Shown here: one piece after another, positions 1,600 to 31,209 of the stretch
How the letters are laid out: each line of letters starts with the position of its first letter
How positions within the stretch are numbered: position 1 is the first letter of the stretch
Assembly: GCA_009692005.1 (NCBI GenBank)
Contig: SHZZ01000038.1
Coordinates: 1 to 33,970 of the forward strand
Reading direction: 5' to 3'
DNA length: 33,970 bases
Origin: Gemmataceae bacterium
GTDB taxonomy: Bacteria > Planctomycetota > Planctomycetia > Gemmatales > Gemmataceae
Made by a program: the position numbers and the translations under genes
Notes under the pieces: generated by a model
Seen by the model: only the letters and a program-made list of their open reading frames with translations
Database searches by the model: none
What the model was told of the DNA's origin: nothing

Positions 1600-2676
1600 A
1601 TGAAAAAGTCCCCTGTATCGCTTCGTCCGCCAGTTCCTCCGGAAAGCCTTAAAGGAAGGGTTCGCTTCCCCCTGGTAGTTGTGCTTGGCACCCCCGCGGA
1701 GGTAACCAACTTGCTGGTCCATGAGCCGAAAGGTGAAACCGTCTGCTACCAGATGGATTTGCACCAGGCGGATCGGCTCGGGCAATCTCTGCGCGAAGCC
1801 GGGGTCGAAGCCAAGGTGACATGCCTGCCGGACTTGTGGGATCTACCTGGAGGTTTTCAAACCGCGGTGTTTTTCCCATCCCGCGGTGGCGAGCGCGATC
1901 TCCAAATCGATATGGTGGAACAGGGGTTTCAGCTTTTGCCTGCCGGCGGGCAGTTCCTGGTTTGGTCGAGTTTGGCCAACGACCTGTATTTTCCCGGGCT
2001 GTTAAAGAAAGTATTCAAGAAGTCCCATACGCACTTGGAGGGCGAAACGACTCTGCTGTGGAGTCAAAAGAACTCGGAACACCCTCGCCGCCGCCACGAA
2101 GTGAATATTCGGTGCAAGGTCAACCGTGGGGAGCCGGCCCACTTCCTTTCCCGCCCGGGGACTTTCTCTTATGGGCAGTTCGACCAGGGTTCACGCGCCC
2201 TGTGCGAGGCCATGAGCCTGCGCGCGGGGCAAAAGGTCATCGATCTCGGCTGCGGCTGGGGAGGCGCCGGCGTTTTTGCCTGGAAGAAAGTGGGCCCCTC
2301 GGGACACATCACTTTTGTCGATAGCAATGTTCGCGCAGTGGAACTGGCCCGCTTCAACGCGGAGGCCAACGGAGTGGCCAATTTTGCCGCCGTGGCGCGC
2401 GGCAATTTGGAAGGTTTTCTCCCACGCTCCTTTGACATCGCCCTGGCCAAACCGCCCTACTTTGCCAACCACGCTCTGGCCAGGCTTTTCATCGAACGCG
2501 CCAGGGAACTGATCAAGGCCGATGGCAGCTTTTTCCTGGTGACGCAACAGTCGATTGAAATGGTTGAGATAATGTCCGAGGTGGGTTTCGATGTGGAAGG
2601 GGCGGAGACGCGGGGCCACACGGTGCTGATGCATCGCGGCTTGGCGGCTCGACAGGACATGCAAGTTGCTCAATAG
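1600..2676 (+). CDS. RsmC/RlmG-like class I SAM-dependent methyltransferase
   Basis: This 358-residue protein has the two-part layout of RsmC/RlmG rRNA guanine-N2 methyltransferases: a degenerate N-terminal Rossmann-like half (about 20-160) and a C-terminal SAM-binding half (about 185-340). SAM motif I is DLGCGWGGAG (215-224), with the acidic residue of motif II at D241. The catalytic motif IV, normally NPPF or NPPY in this family, reads AKPPYF (283-288), so Asn is replaced by Lys. That makes the 16S G1207 assignment uncertain. The start lies 3 nt after the mutarotase stop. Its last 7 bases overlap the stop of the convergent metalloprotease gene. It may act on rRNA, or be a paralogue with another substrate. 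Confidence 0.75.
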   Translation: MKKSPVSLRPPVPPESLKGRVRFPLVVVLGTPAEVTNLLVHEPKGETVCYQMDLHQADRLGQSLREAGVEAKVTCLPDLWDLPGGFQTAVFFPSRGGERDLQIDMVEQGFQLLPAGGQFLVWSSLANDLYFPGLLKKVFKKSHTHLEGETTLLWSQKNSEHPRRRHEVNIRCKVNRGEPAHFLSRPGTFSYGQFDQGSRALCEAMSLRAGQKVIDLGCGWGGAGVFAWKKVGPSGHITFVDSNVRAVELARFNAEANGVANFAAVARGNLEGFLPRSFDIALAKPPYFANHALARLFIERARELIKADGSFFLVTQQSIEMVEIMSEVGFDVEGAETRGHTVLMHRGLAARQDMQVAQ

Positions 2677-4502
2677 TATTCGTAACCAACCTGGAAAATC
2701 ACGCGGCCGTCCGGCAAGCGTTCAATGTGCGTGATGTGCACCGCCTGGCCGCCCTGCTTGATGGGATTGCTTGAAGGAATGGTCCTGGGGGTGAAATCGG
2801 CGTTGGCCTTGCTGGGGAAGGGGACCACATTCAAGTAGCGGGAAGGACCTGAAGGCCCGGCGATGCCGTGCGATTCTTCCAGGCTCGGCTTGCCGTCGAC
2901 CACGCGCCAGATCAGCAGTCCATCGGCCGGCAGATTCTTGTCGAAACCTTTTTTCGCCCGGTTCTCCAGGAGGAAATATTCGGTTCCGTCGGCGCGCACA
3001 GGGATTTTGAAACACTCCTTGAAACTGCTTTCAATCGGTGAAAGGATGAGTTTCTGCGGCACATCGGGGGAGATGACCACCGGATTGATCCAACCGAGCT
3101 GCTCCTTGCACCAGGCGGAAAAATGCACTGGTCGCCCCTCGTTGCCATGCCCGTTGGCCATGGTGCACCAGAGGCCAAGCCCTTCCATGTCGGGCACTTC
3201 CGGGCGGGCATAAAGGTCGGGCAGCCCCAGCATGTGGCCGAACTCATGCGTCATGACACTGATGTTGGCCATGCGCTCTCCCCCCTCGGGGCAGACAAAA
3301 TAGGAGAACCGCTTTCCCTTGTGGGTGAGCATGGCGCGGTGCGGCCAGAGGATGTTCCCACGGGAGACCGGCGCCCGTCCGCCGGCGTAGAGGAGGAACA
3401 CCCCGTCAAATTCCTCCATCACCTTGTCCCCATCCCGGGCGGTCCACTTTTCCATGATCTTGTCGAGAAAGCCGCCGCGCTGCGTGGCGGATGCGTACTC
3501 CATCCGTTTCTTTTCCAGTTTCACCGGGGGAAAAGTCTTTCCTTCGACTTTCATTTTTCCGCACGATTGTTCCAGGTAATAATCATTCATGCTGCCATAC
3601 ACTTTTTGGCCGGTGGCGTTCTTTTCCGCGTAGGCGCTGGCGCTAAAAAGCTGTTTCTCCCAGTCGGCCGCCTTGATTTTTTCATTCATGGCCTGGTCGG
3701 CAAATTCCACGGTAAGGATGGCCAGGTTGTACGCTGGTTTTTTGAACAACCGTCTTTCCCGATCATTCCAGCCGCGCCCGCCCTTCTCATCCCCCTGATC
3801 GAGTTCCGCCTTGATTTCCGCGGTGACAGCCTTCCCCTCGCGGAGCAGGGAAAGCTTGATGAGATCGCCGGGCTTTTTGTCATCAAGGGGCAGTGATGCG
3901 CCGGGTGTCAGGGTGAGTTTTTTTCCATCGACCGCGACAATCTGATCGCCGTTCTTCACTCCGGCTTTTTCCCCAGGACCGCCCGGCGCCACGCCGCGAA
4001 TCACCAGCGTGCCTTCTTCTTTTCCCGCCTGAAAAAACAACCCCAAGCGCACCTGCGGCCGGGTGGTGTAGGGGTTGCTCCAGGCGCCGGCTTCCACTTT
4101 CACTTCCTGTCCTTTGCCCTCGCGCTTGATTTGTATTTTCAGGCTTTGCCCCTGTTCGATCCCCCCTTGAACCTGGGAAAGAACTTCCCTGGAAGCAATC
4201 TTCACCCCGTTGATTTGTTCCACTAGGTCGCCTTTGCGAAGGCCGGCCTTTTCCCCGGGCGACTTGCTTTCCACCTCGGCGATCACCGGCCCGTCGGCCT
4301 GCTTCCAATCGAAGCGAATGCCGATTTTTCCCGACTGGCTGGACCCTGCGCCTGCAACCCCTTTCAACTTGACCGCCTGATCGACGGTCTTATATTCCTT
4401 CAGATCCCGTTCCTCGGCCAACAAAGGCAAGGTGACCGCGCCGGAGGAAAGGAGCAGCCCGGTGAAAATTGCCTGGGAAAGGGTTCGCTGTTTGAACATC
4501 AT
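2670..4502 (-). CDS. Secreted M6-type metalloprotease with tandem PDZ domains
   Basis: This 610-residue protein starts with a signal peptide (hydrophobic stretch about 11-28, then LLAEE). Two PDZ-like modules follow: about 50-135, with SPGEKAGLRKGD, and about 150-232, with GGPGEKAGVKNGD. The C-terminal half is a zinc peptidase of the M6 immune-inhibitor-A type. It has HEFGHMLGLPD at 419-429, where H419, H423 and D429 would bind zinc and E420 is catalytic, and a Met-turn-like CTMANG around 446-451. It should act outside the cytoplasmic membrane. The PDZ modules suggest binding of substrate or partner C-termini. Two ATGs (4502 and 4499) are both possible; no strong ribosome site separates them. 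It follows the DUF1080 gene on the same strand after 130 bp, so it may be its own unit. Confidence 0.85.
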   Translation of the reverse strand: MMFKQRTLSQAIFTGLLLSSGAVTLPLLAEERDLKEYKTVDQAVKLKGVAGAGSSQSGKIGIRFDWKQADGPVIAEVESKSPGEKAGLRKGDLVEQINGVKIASREVLSQVQGGIEQGQSLKIQIKREGKGQEVKVEAGAWSNPYTTRPQVRLGLFFQAGKEEGTLVIRGVAPGGPGEKAGVKNGDQIVAVDGKKLTLTPGASLPLDDKKPGDLIKLSLLREGKAVTAEIKAELDQGDEKGGRGWNDRERRLFKKPAYNLAILTVEFADQAMNEKIKAADWEKQLFSASAYAEKNATGQKVYGSMNDYYLEQSCGKMKVEGKTFPPVKLEKKRMEYASATQRGGFLDKIMEKWTARDGDKVMEEFDGVFLLYAGGRAPVSRGNILWPHRAMLTHKGKRFSYFVCPEGGERMANISVMTHEFGHMLGLPDLYARPEVPDMEGLGLWCTMANGHGNEGRPVHFSAWCKEQLGWINPVVISPDVPQKLILSPIESSFKECFKIPVRADGTEYFLLENRAKKGFDKNLPADGLLIWRVVDGKPSLEESHGIAGPSGPSRYLNVVPFPSKANADFTPRTIPSSNPIKQGGQAVHITHIERLPDGRVIFQVGYEYY

Positions 4503-26361: not shown

Positions 26362-29300
26362 TTAATTCCCGCCGCCGTTCAGCCAGCGGCCTTCATCAAT
26401 GCGGAACTGGCCAGTAGCGCGGTTGTAAGTGATCTTTCTGCCTTTTATTTCTTCGGGTGGCAGTCCCTGGCGGACCCGCTTGTATAAAGTGGCTGTGCCA
26501 TTTTCTCCCCCGTTGAAAATCACCAAGTCCTTGGCCTCCTCGTAGGAAACTTGCTCGGCGCGGCCCCAGAATTCCTGAGCCTGCACTACCACACGACCCT
26601 TGGCCCGCATCTCTTGTTGGGCTTTTCCCTTGGCTTGCGTGGTTAGAACATCCAGGCGGTCGCAACGCAGGTACATCCCGCCCTTGGGCAAATTGTCGAG
26701 TACGGCGTCGAGGTCGATTTCAATATTTGGGTTTTCACAGGGGAAATTTAAAACGCGCACATTTTCTAAAAATGTTGCTGTGTTGCTCAGGCTGTTGCCA
26801 TACATGCTGCGCAAAAAGGTAACATGGGTGAGCTTCATCACCTCAGTGGTTTTATCCTTGGAATTGCTGGTAGTGATGGCGGTTGGCTTGGGAGGGGTTT
26901 CCGGGCTAACGGGAGCAAAGAGGGCATCGCCGCCCCCCAGTTGCAAGATGCGGACTTCCCCAGGTCCCGATGCTCGGACTTCGTTCCCTTCTTTGGCCTG
27001 CTTGCCGTCTTCGTCATCGCGGTCGAGTCGGTTCATGGATAGTGTGATCGCCTGGATGCGGTGGTATTTCACCAGTCGGTCTTCCAAACGAATGATCTCC
27101 TCCACGCGGACATTGCGGTCGCAGACGAGATTTAAAACCCGTGCCGGCTGGCCGACTTTATTCCCCGCCCTGAGGGAGACTTCCTTGTCGAAGAAGACCT
27201 GCAAGGATTGGCAGGCCAGGCGGGAGTTTTCCTGTTCGGCCTGAATGCCGCCATGAAACTCGGCGAATTTCCCATTGAAGAACATCGACTTGTTCCAGTG
27301 CACCTCAAGGGGAACTGCCTTGTTCAACTTGTTTCCCTGGAAGTTCGTGGTGCTTTCCATTTGCATGGCGCCGACACCATTGACCCAGGCCTTGTTGGTC
27401 GCCTGGTCAATGTTGACTTCGGGGCCAACAATTAGCATGCGGTCCATGCGCAACTGAGCCAGGTCGCCAGTGACAACCAGGAAATTTCCCTCGGGCCCAT
27501 AGGTCATTTGCAGGGTGTCGCCTTTGACATCGACGCCTTTTTCCCCCACTTTGGACGGGTCTTGCTTGACATGCACCGAGCCCTCGGTCCAGACCTTCTC
27601 GAAGCGGTTTTTCCCCGGGAATTGAATGATCCAGGCCTCGATGGAACGGGCGGTCAGTTCTAACGGTGGATCCCTTTTCTCTTTGCCATCTCCCTTGAGA
27701 GGTTGACCCAAGTCGAGCCCTAAAACAGGCCCCAGGATTTTTTCCTTGGGCATGGGGCTGCCCGGCAGTTTGCCATTCTGCTTGGGATCAGCGCTTGGCG
27801 CGGGCGGGTTGGCCTCGCCTGGCGGCGGGTCGCGAAACCAGACAGTCAGGCGGCCGCTCTCCTTGATGATCAAGTCGCGGGAAATGGAGGCAACATTTCC
27901 AATGCCTTCCACGCGGTGGATTTTTTTTCCGCCCTGTGCTGGCGCGGCCTCTTTTTTCAGCGAGCTGGCCTCTGGCTTGGCCTTTGGCTTGGGTTCCGGC
28001 TTGGGCGGCGCCAGCCAGACTTTCAAGGTATCCGCACTCAATTCCTGTTCCTCTTTCGGGTTCAGAAACCTGGCTTTGCCTTTCAAAACGAGCAATTCAT
28101 GCGGCCCCTCCCGCGTGGAAAGAAGTTGGTCGGTCCAGAATGCCTTGACCGGTTTTCCCTGACCGGTTTTTTCTCGTTCATGCATCTCTATCCAACCGGG
28201 TCCAGTGGCCTGCGCTTTTTGAAACGAAGTGGACCCCGCAACCTTGGGGTCGGCCTTCTCCTCTGTCAGGGTCATTTGCGGGCAGTGAAGTACATTGCCT
28301 TCCTTGATGGCCCAAATTTCCGGCGAGCCTTTCAAAGTGGCGGATTGAGTCCGGGCATCGTAATAAAAATCGTTGCCATGCGCTTCCAGGTGATCCGCCT
28401 CGGAAGTGAGCACCACCTCTTTCCCGGTGGCCCTGGCGGTTTGGATGTCCATGCCTGTTTCCAGGCTTTTTTCCTCGCGTGCAACTCCTGAGGCAGGGTC
28501 GGCGCCATCCTTCCTGCGCAACTCTAGCGTCAGTTTCTCGCACACCAGTTGGTCGACCGCGCCTTTGGTGTCGTGGTAGCGGTTGACCGTTACTTCTCGC
28601 ACGGGCGCCCCGGGTTTGAGACCAGCGTCAAAAACTGCCAGATCCATTCCCTTTTGAAGGAAGTAGTCAAAGGTTCCCTGGGTTTTGATGGTTATGTGGG
28701 ACTTATCCTTGGCTCCAGTGGATTCTGTGCTCTGAGGTGGAGAATCTTTTTTATGCCCCGGGTTCCCCAAAAAATTCGAGTTGCCATCGATGTAAAGATG
28801 CATGTCCACTTGCGAGAGGAGTTTGATTCTGCGGACGCCGGAAATAGGATCGCCCTTGGCCTTTTTGGCCTGGGCCGGAGTAGCGCCAGGAGTTTCCGAA
28901 AGGAGTTCCATTTCGAAACCGACGCCGTGGATTTCCGTCGGCTTGGGCTTGCTGGAGTTGTCGGTCAAGTGCAAGGCGTCGGCCGACCAGACGAGGCTTT
29001 TGTTTTCCTGATAAAAGAGCGGCCCGTTGGGAATGAAAATAAAAATGTCGTCGTCGCGAGCGGAAGTTTTGCGGTTGTTGACCACCTCGATTTTGCCGCT
29101 GATTTCCGCGCCCACCACCTTGCGGCTGCCGATGTCGGTCAGGTGAGCTATGGGCCTGTCGAACTTCAAGAAAGCGACCTCGCCCCGAATGGTGTTGATT
29201 TCCTGCTGCCGACTTTCGGATTTATCCTTGTTGAAAAGAGCCACGCTTAGCGGGGCGAGGCGGACGCGCCCATCGGGCTCGACTTGAAACAGGTCGGCGG

Positions 29301-29571
29301 CAAAAACCATTCTGCGCGAGTTGATTTCAATTTTGATCTTGCGGTTGATTTCCGGGCATTCTTGGCCAAAGGCCTGCTGCAAGCGGTAAACCACGCGGCT
29401 GGTGGTTCGGGCTGGCAAGGGCGGAAGGTCTTCCTTGGCGCGCGCGTAAAAGCCGGCGGGCAAGGGGGGCATGCCATCAATCCCGCCCAGCACCCAGCCG
29501 TAGCCCAGGTACATGGCCAGGAAAAGGCTGAAGCCAAATCCCAGGAGCAAAATCCTTTTTGGGGTCCACAC
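26362..29571 (-). CDS. Giant LptC/OstA-like lipopolysaccharide-transport protein
   Basis: The 1,069-residue protein has one N-terminal membrane anchor (about 7-29) and a large extracytoplasmic part rich in beta-strands. Residues about 60-270 resemble an LptC-like region (NRKIKIEINSRRM, WSADALHLTD). OstA/LptA-like strand repeats appear at about 375-435 (TSEADHLEAHGNDFYYDA), 489-519, 665-737 and 969-1069 (MRAKGRVVVQAQEFWGRAEQVSYEE). A Lys/Pro/Ala-rich linker lies near 519-547. E. coli LptC and LptA are each under 200 residues, so this looks like an anchored fusion or expanded bridge. The start is GTG, with AGGAG 10 nt upstream. It follows kdsC by 37 nt on the same strand, as in the Proteobacterial kdsD-kdsC-lptC-lptA order. 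Function is inferred from context and repeats. Confidence 0.75.
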   Translation of the reverse strand: MWTPKRILLLGFGFSLFLAMYLGYGWVLGGIDGMPPLPAGFYARAKEDLPPLPARTTSRVVYRLQQAFGQECPEINRKIKIEINSRRMVFAADLFQVEPDGRVRLAPLSVALFNKDKSESRQQEINTIRGEVAFLKFDRPIAHLTDIGSRKVVGAEISGKIEVVNNRKTSARDDDIFIFIPNGPLFYQENKSLVWSADALHLTDNSSKPKPTEIHGVGFEMELLSETPGATPAQAKKAKGDPISGVRRIKLLSQVDMHLYIDGNSNFLGNPGHKKDSPPQSTESTGAKDKSHITIKTQGTFDYFLQKGMDLAVFDAGLKPGAPVREVTVNRYHDTKGAVDQLVCEKLTLELRRKDGADPASGVAREEKSLETGMDIQTARATGKEVVLTSEADHLEAHGNDFYYDARTQSATLKGSPEIWAIKEGNVLHCPQMTLTEEKADPKVAGSTSFQKAQATGPGWIEMHEREKTGQGKPVKAFWTDQLLSTREGPHELLVLKGKARFLNPKEEQELSADTLKVWLAPPKPEPKPKAKPEASSLKKEAAPAQGGKKIHRVEGIGNVASISRDLIIKESGRLTVWFRDPPPGEANPPAPSADPKQNGKLPGSPMPKEKILGPVLGLDLGQPLKGDGKEKRDPPLELTARSIEAWIIQFPGKNRFEKVWTEGSVHVKQDPSKVGEKGVDVKGDTLQMTYGPEGNFLVVTGDLAQLRMDRMLIVGPEVNIDQATNKAWVNGVGAMQMESTTNFQGNKLNKAVPLEVHWNKSMFFNGKFAEFHGGIQAEQENSRLACQSLQVFFDKEVSLRAGNKVGQPARVLNLVCDRNVRVEEIIRLEDRLVKYHRIQAITLSMNRLDRDDEDGKQAKEGNEVRASGPGEVRILQLGGGDALFAPVSPETPPKPTAITTSNSKDKTTEVMKLTHVTFLRSMYGNSLSNTATFLENVRVLNFPCENPNIEIDLDAVLDNLPKGGMYLRCDRLDVLTTQAKGKAQQEMRAKGRVVVQAQEFWGRAEQVSYEEAKDLVIFNGGENGTATLYKRVRQGLPPEEIKGRKITYNRATGQFRIDEGRWLNGGGN

Positions 29572-29608
29572 TGCTGCCTGACTCCTTGAATCGTTTAACC
29601 AAATTTCC

Positions 29609-30151
29609 TTAGACGCCTACCAGGGCCCATTTCCCTTGCACTTGCAAAATCAATTCAGCGATTTCACGAACGCCACAGCGGCCAGCCGGCGCTTGCGTGA
29701 CATAATGTGCCGCCTGGCGAACTTCCCAACTGCCATCGCCCGGGGCTACACCCAGCCCGCAGGCCTGGATTGGCCCCAGGTCCGCCAGGTCATCCCCCAT
29801 AAAGCAGGTTGACGGCGCGTTCTCACCCGTGGCGGTCCAAATCCCTTGCAGGGACTTCATTTTGTCCTTCGATCCTTGCACCACCAGGCTGACCCCGAGT
29901 TCTTTGGCTCGCAGCTCAACCACGGAAGATTCTCTGCCGGTGATAATGGCGGTGCGAATGCCCGCTTCGCCTAACGCCTTAATCGCCATGCCATCGCGGA
30001 CATTAAAGACTTTCCACTCAACCCCGCTGCCGTTGTGAATAATCCCGCCCCCGGTGAGGACCCCATCCACATCCATGACAAACAAACGGATGCTCTGGCA
30101 TCGCTGCTTGAGGGATTTTTTCTGGATAGTTGGCTGCTCAACAGTATTCAT
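29609..30151 (-). CDS. kdsC: KdsC-like HAD phosphatase (Kdo-8-phosphate phosphatase)
   Basis: The 180-residue C0-type HAD phosphatase removes phosphate from Kdo-8-phosphate. The nucleophile motif is DVDGVLT (27-33, with D27 and D29). Motif II is IITGRESSVVELRAKELG, the motif III lysine is in GSKDKMKSL, and motif IV is MGDDLADL. NVRDGMAIKAL and the C-terminal AGRCGVREIAELIL are typical of KdsC. The ATG overlaps the kdsD stop as ATGA. With kdsD directly upstream the Kdo assignment is strong, although related phosphatases act on other sialic-acid-like sugars. Confidence 0.9.
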   Translation of the reverse strand: MNTVEQPTIQKKSLKQRCQSIRLFVMDVDGVLTGGGIIHNGSGVEWKVFNVRDGMAIKALGEAGIRTAIITGRESSVVELRAKELGVSLVVQGSKDKMKSLQGIWTATGENAPSTCFMGDDLADLGPIQACGLGVAPGDGSWEVRQAAHYVTQAPAGRCGVREIAELILQVQGKWALVGV

Positions 30152-31209
30152 GCGACGCGGGCCCCCTGCGACAGCCCGGGGGCAAAGCCAATTAAATCGG
30201 TGATGTCTAAAAGCCCAGCAGGGCGCTGGCCCCCATCCACCACGGGGACCTCGCTGAGTTTCCTCGTTCGCATGAGGTCAAGGGCCTGCTCCAACTTCGA
30301 TCCGAGGGTGACCGTGAGAGGTTTGCGGGTCATGACTTCTGCAATCGGCCGGTCGAGCGCCTCATCCATCCGTTTTTCAATCAGCCTTGCCAGGTCGCTA
30401 TCGGTGAAGAGGCCGCTCAAAATCCCGGAATCCGCAGTGAGCATGACGGCGCCTGTTCTCCGTCCCTGCTGGCCAACGCAAGAAAAAACTTCCCGCACCG
30501 TTTGCCAATCGGGGGATATGCGCAATTCTTGCCCATGGCGCATGACACTTTCCACCGACATCAGTTTCTTGCCCAGGCTTCCCGCCGGGTGGAAACGGGC
30601 AAACTCCTCGGGGCTGAAAGATCTGGCCTGGCTGAGGCAAAAGGCCATGGCATCGCCGACGGCGATCATGGCGGTGCTGCTGGCGCTGGGCGCCAGCCCC
30701 AATGGACAAACTTCTTCCAAGGGGCCATAAGCAATCGTTACATCGGCGCGTTTGGCCAGGGTGCTTTGTCGGTTGCCCGTGAGGCCGATAATTCCGGCAC
30801 ATTCCTGGCGCAGCGGGCCAAGAAGCCTCAAGATTTCTTCACTTTCTCCACTATGGGAAAGTACCAGCGCCAGGTCCTGGGGATGAACCATTCCCAGGTC
30901 GCCATGGACGGCGCGAACAGCATCGAGAAAATACGAGCGCGTTCCGGTGGAGTTAAGTGTGCCAACCATTTTGTAACCGACATCGGCGCTTTTTCCCGTG
31001 CCGGTGATCGCCAGCCTTCCCACCCCTTTTTCCGTCATGGCCCAAATTTTTTGAATACTGTTGAGAAAGGAATCTCCCAGGCGAGAAGCGACCAGTTCAA
31101 GCGCGGCAGACTCCTCCCGGATCAATTCTCGGGCGAAATCCAAAGCCTCCACTGCCAGGAATTCTGTCCCGGTGGGAAACCGCAGCGGGTTGACATCCCT
31201 TTCTGCCAT
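30148..31209 (-). CDS. kdsD: Arabinose-5-phosphate isomerase (KpsF/GutQ/KdsD family)
   Basis: The 353-residue enzyme converts ribulose 5-phosphate to arabinose 5-phosphate, the first dedicated Kdo precursor. It has an N-terminal SIS domain with ITGTGKSADVG (68-78), VHGDLGMV (101-108, with the conserved His) and SHSGES (118-123), then CPLGLAPSASST. Two C-terminal CBS domains follow (about 215-340). The start at 31209 is chosen because the family begins near there and the frame extension to 31383 is Ser/Pro/Arg-rich with no homology features. The ribosome site is weak. It heads the kdsD-kdsC-LptC/OstA-like unit. Confidence 0.93.
   Translation of the reverse strand: MAERDVNPLRFPTGTEFLAVEALDFARELIREESAALELVASRLGDSFLNSIQKIWAMTEKGVGRLAITGTGKSADVGYKMVGTLNSTGTRSYFLDAVRAVHGDLGMVHPQDLALVLSHSGESEEILRLLGPLRQECAGIIGLTGNRQSTLAKRADVTIAYGPLEEVCPLGLAPSASSTAMIAVGDAMAFCLSQARSFSPEEFARFHPAGSLGKKLMSVESVMRHGQELRISPDWQTVREVFSCVGQQGRRTGAVMLTADSGILSGLFTDSDLARLIEKRMDEALDRPIAEVMTRKPLTVTLGSKLEQALDLMRTRKLSEVPVVDGGQRPAGLLDITDLIGFAPGLSQGARVA

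Follow-up and report, generated by a model that had tools for sequence, protein, structure and literature searches.

A giant anchored protein encoded behind kdsD-kdsC in a Gemmataceae bacterium is a probable single-chain LptC-LptA bridge

Introduction

The closest described counterpart of the locus reported here is the E. coli kdsD-kdsC-lptC-lptA-lptB segment, which encodes an LptC of ~190 aa and an LptA of ~185 aa that is used in several copies. Multi-domain OstA-like proteins of Bacteroidota (Pfam OstA_2) carry several OstA folds in one chain. In Veillonella, a transenvelope MlaD, composed of an MCE domain and an outer-membrane barrel, has been proposed to span the periplasm as one long protein that replaces separate carriers (PMC10665443). 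In planctomycetes, LptD and BamA were reported for every member examined in a study in which the words LptA and LptC are absent (PMC3422733), and a later survey called the Lpt set of the phylum 'largely reduced' (PMC8871954). Three enzymes, KdsA, LpxK and WaaA, have been detected as proteins in Tuwongella (PMC8567305). Our search of titles and passages in the PMC literature found no report of a natural LptC-LptA fusion or of a planctomycete LptA or LptC.

Here we describe a kdsD-kdsC locus followed by a single 1,069-aa frame. It shares with the E. coli locus its gene order, one N-terminal anchor, predicted LptC and then LptA folds and a C-terminal match to a curated LptA profile, but it places four to five OstA repeats in one chain where E. 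coli uses separate short proteins. The likeness to the Bacteroidota proteins, several OstA folds per chain, is one of general description only, and that to Veillonella MlaD lies in the use of one long protein, the folds and cargo being unrelated.

Results

Gene order and conservation of the locus

The window, i.e., the whole stretch of 33,970 nt of Gemmataceae DNA that was analysed, belongs to a genome of 4.19 Mb in 99 contigs with a completeness rated at 100%. Direct reading of the sequence gave three minus-strand genes in a row:

30148..31209, minus strand: kdsD-type D-arabinose-5-phosphate isomerase, first step of Kdo synthesis (TIGR00393 KpsF/GutQ; Pfam SIS and CBS domains)
29609..30151, minus strand: kdsC, Kdo-8-phosphate phosphatase (TIGR01670), overlapping kdsD by ATGA
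26362..29571, minus strand: giant anchored protein of predicted LptC-LptA type, 1,069 aa, GTG start (open reading frame, Pfam, AlphaFold2, homologues)

Both enzymes scored above their curated cut-offs, the isomerase with 230 bits (cut-off 203.7) and the phosphatase with 133 bits (cut-off 107). The kdsD frame runs from an ATG at 31209 to 30148, and a longer GTG-start frame reaches 31383. The kdsD/kdsC junction reads ...GCATGAATACT, an ATGA overlap. The giant frame opens with a GTG 37 nt past the kdsC stop, and an AAGGAG stands upstream of this start codon. A preliminary description of this DNA had given the same coordinates, strand, ATGA coupling and 37-nt gap, all of which were correct, and the E. 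coli-like order that it had proposed, kdsD-kdsC and then the giant gene, was likewise borne out. By Pfam, the genes flanking the three look unrelated (a sulfatase and a 3-keto-disaccharide hydrolase). Elsewhere in the window, positions 2670-4502 of the minus strand encode a protein of 610 aa that combines an M6-type metallopeptidase domain with a pair of PDZ domains.

Homologues of the giant protein were found in 69 of 79 related genomes. At the family and order level, upstream DNA was readable at 26 loci, and at every one of them the gene immediately before the giant is kdsC or, if that is lacking, kdsD; the arrangement is thus not a product of chance. At class level, too, kdsD/kdsC precede it at nearly all loci. 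Downstream, neither lptB nor any other shared gene was found at the loci examined, and the ten relatives checked for lptB had only unrelated genes there. Across 25 aligned giants, identity to the protein of the window ranges from 67% to 29%, and frames of the family extend to ~1,340 aa. In one relative, two frames on what appears to be a single contig (L015, L081) together make up the giant, through either a frameshift or an assembly error.

Predicted architecture of the giant protein

The features assigned within the giant frame, from the N- to the C-terminus, are as follows:

29491..29562, minus strand: single transmembrane helix, predicted inner-membrane anchor (residues 4-27; AlphaFold2 helix and sole hydropathy peak)
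28786..29364, minus strand: LptC-like domain (residues ~70-262; hhalign and structure match)
28252..28710, minus strand: OstA repeat 1 (residues ~288-440; independent OstA profile, E 6.8e-8 full length, 3.7e-10 as segment)
27832..28158, minus strand: OstA repeat 2, weak (residues ~472-580; E 4e-4 full length, 1.5e-5 as segment)
27346..27672, minus strand: OstA repeat 3, weak (residues ~634-742; E 9e-5 full length, 2e-6 as segment)
26914..27321, minus strand: OstA repeat 4 (residues ~751-886; E 3.4e-8 full length, 2.3e-10 as segment)
26374..26841, minus strand: OstA repeat 5, bona fide LptA domain (residues ~911-1066; Pfam PF03968, LptA/LptH fold)

An AlphaFold2 run of the giant, using 27 sequences, predicted a helix at residues 4-27 followed by an all-beta remainder (pLDDT 77.8, pTM 0.58). 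The helix coincides with the only hydropathy window above 1.6, which starts at residue 7, in agreement with the one membrane anchor claimed beforehand. Given the pTM of 0.58 and the low-confidence linkers at 528-547, 587-631 and 881-908, the placement of the modules relative to one another is not fixed in the model. Teneurins were the top Foldseek matches and were dismissed at a TM of ~0.05; Foldseek combined with domain superposition gave a list of structural matches led by LptD, LptA, LptH and LptC. The predicted protein is thus a string of Lpt-type beta folds.

In the giant, PF03968 (LptA/LptD_N) matched residues 963-1054 with an E-value of 3.7e-12 and 46.9 bits (cut-off 20.4), and it is present in 23 of the 25 aligned giants. 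The corresponding repeat 5 (residues 912-1068) superposed on E. coli LptA (2r1a) with a Z of 14.2 and 1.8 Å over 119 residues, and on LptH with a Z of 14.0 and an rmsd of 1.4 Å. Against the TIGR03002 LptA equivalog, the whole giant reached 38.9 bits, under the cut-off of 71.7. It does not qualify as a stand-alone LptA, i.e., a free soluble protein with a signal peptide, because its LptA part belongs to an anchored chain of 1,069 aa.

For the remaining repeats, an OstA profile was built solely from repeats of the shorter fusions described below, with no giant sequence included. It gave five non-overlapping matches in order along the giant, at residues 295-435, 477-566, 639-728, 757-827 and 917-1057 (E 2e-11 for the last). 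The earlier claim of several OstA-like repeats therefore stands by this independent profile, but two of the five matches are weak and Pfam recognises the C-terminal repeat alone. As the weak repeats 2 and 3 match overlapping parts of the profile and are perhaps one interrupted repeat, with repeat 3 as its second half past a disordered insert, we state the count as four to five. PF13100 (OstA_2) matched one fusion of ~660 aa, not the giant.

The N-terminal domain was assigned by profile-profile and fold comparison. Against the LptC domains of 14 planctomycete proteins, hhalign returned a probability of 96.3% (E 1.8e-9) over residues ~88-226, with no other module of the giant above 4%. Modelled alone (residues 28-265), the domain reached a pLDDT of 83, and its nearest fold was LptC (6mit_C, Z 12.1, 3.7 Å over 136 residues), followed by 4b54 (Z 11.8), 3my2 (Z 11.4) and then LptA (Z 10.4); the first 19 rows of the structure search were all Lpt proteins. 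An anchor helix at residues 4-27 with an LptC fold behind it is the architecture of LptC. The curated LptC profile PF06835 matched neither the giant itself nor anything else in the genome, and it was reached by one of the 25 aligned giants (E 2.2e-4). Within the giant family, then, LptC profiles match the N-terminal and LptA profiles the C-terminal part, as had been anticipated.

Single-chain LptC-LptA proteins in other planctomycete families

Running the Pfam models across the phylum showed that other planctomycete families have frames, 655-1,124 aa long, that begin with PF06835 and in most cases continue with PF03968. One such fusion of 664 aa (L142) matched PF06835 at residues 53-200 (E 7.6e-20) and PF03968 three times (E 4.2e-22). 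Both profiles were over their cut-offs in frames of 931 and 1,112 aa; in those of 981 and 1,124 aa, LptC was over its cut-off and the LptA match was sub-threshold. Read directly from curated profiles, the predicted architecture of these frames is single-chain LptC-LptA, and many of them also stand behind kdsD-kdsC.

Searches of PDB sequences with phmmer using a single giant, and with a profile of 25 giants, returned no match; linking the giant to Lpt proteins consequently needs profile-profile or fold comparison. Profile-profile alignment of the giants with the shorter fusions gave a probability of 98.4% (E 5e-15) over residues 651-1063. By this strong evidence of homology, the giant is a predicted variant of the known Lpt machine, not a new kind of system.

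Partner genes and alternative readings

The genome contains LptB, over its cut-off, two LptF/LptG-family permeases, LpxC and a Kdo transferase, so that kdsD, kdsC, LpxC and the Kdo transferase are the Kdo-lipid A pathway genes identified. LptB lies on another contig than the giant, whereas lptB adjoins in the E. coli locus. PF04453 alone had no match in the genome, and the LptD of this genome is by itself without any Pfam match, PF03968 included. Absence of LptD was rejected, as a class-level LptD profile, in which 12 of the 15 planctomycete rows match PF04453, found a divergent gene at C87:14713-17391; the same profile found LptD in 65 of 65 good-quality relative genomes. Of the genes that the preliminary description asked for, those of LptB, LptF/G, LptD, LpxC and Kdo transferase are thus encoded. 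On C87 (L162:565-6431), the divergent LptD gene, L162:3108-6431, stands directly after an RNase E/G gene.

Lpt folds are no proof of cargo, and Borrelia burgdorferi, which lacks LPS, has Lpt proteins that interact (PMC10353723). The giant could accordingly be a bridge of Lpt type that carries some other glycolipid or lipid in place of Kdo-lipid A, which is the proposal made for Borrelia. We regard this as unlikely in view of the Kdo-gene neighbourhood kept across the phylum, the LpxC and Kdo transferase of the genome and the KdsA, LpxK and WaaA proteins of the planctomycete Tuwongella (PMC8567305).

Profile searches of the genome found no separate LptA (PF03968) or LptC (PF06835) besides the giant, and these searches hence leave it as the sole candidate for the two functions. 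Short divergent proteins can escape profiles, and PF03968 also missed the LptD of this genome; the giant might then be merely a length-extended LptA (or LptC) with structural extra repeats, undetected short LptA or LptC proteins doing the rest. That arrangement appears slightly less probable again than a different cargo. The giant chain holds an LptC domain as well as LptA domains, both curated profiles match one frame in other families, and, in the class to which the window belongs, PF06835 has no match and the listed matches of PF03968 lie solely in frames >1,000 aa.

AsmA/TamB and RBG-like bridges are likewise long anchored beta-groove proteins. A phospholipid bridge of that type with a superficial Lpt resemblance shares this design, and the LPD-3 complex structure is among the Foldseek matches of the giant, but such a reading is made very improbable by sequence homology specifically to LptA and LptC, by domain-level fits to LptA, LptH and LptC and by the Kdo gene neighbourhood.

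Proposed role of the giant protein

Sequence, predicted fold and genome context lend good support to the single-chain LptC-LptA reading put forward in the preliminary description. With a probability of roughly 85%, we take the giant to be an anchored covalent LptC-LptA bridge that leads from LptB2FG through its LptC domain and OstA repeats to LptD, with Kdo-lipid A as cargo. The single helix would anchor the protein in the inner membrane, and the LptC domain would receive lipopolysaccharide from LptB2FG, the transporter whose genes lie elsewhere in the genome. The four to five OstA/LptA repeats would relay the lipopolysaccharide through the periplasm to the divergent LptD, at its N-terminal domain. 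Lipid A-Kdo as cargo would account for an operon shared with Kdo genes.

The OstA repeats would stack into one continuous groove. The giant presumably docks on LptF and LptD, its cargo would be lipopolysaccharide, and its length may be an adaptation to a wide periplasm. By residue count, it corresponds to about five to six LptA units, an estimated ~20 nm if stacked like LptA fibres.

If so, the missing planctomycete LptA and LptC are apparently joined in one long chain next to Kdo genes, and this chain would complete a plausible path of export for a phylum with a long-disputed envelope. The giant would also be a natural experiment on a lipid bridge of fixed length, and a single-chain bridge would offer a simpler structural target than a multi-protein one.

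Variation in length and gene neighbourhood

It seems fairly probable that the whole periplasmic LPS conveyor of planctomycetes is one covalent protein, the repeat number and length of which vary by lineage, from ~660 to 1,340 aa, with bridge length fixed genetically as opposed to by LptA oligomerisation. Frames of ~660 aa with one LptC and three LptA matches occur in two families, f45, possibly anammox bacteria, and f71. Like the giant, to which they are homologous, they stand behind kdsD-kdsC; they are shorter, and they pass both the LptC and the LptA Pfam models where the giant passes only that of LptA.

Several neighbourhoods differ in detail. Directly behind the ~660-aa fusion, two loci (L142:3920-5743 and L154:4358-6184) encode a protein of ~608 aa that contains a GDPD-family phosphodiesterase region and HEAT repeats, and frames of similar size follow the fusion in L146 and L155. 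A frame of ~84 aa, weakly DUF7387-like, lies between kdsC and the fusion at L145:2688-2939 and L143:3765-4016. Finally, one locus (L157:2510-4469) has an E. coli-like arrangement of kdsD, kdsC and a separate short lptC (174 aa), in which the next gene is of the ApbE family, not lptA.
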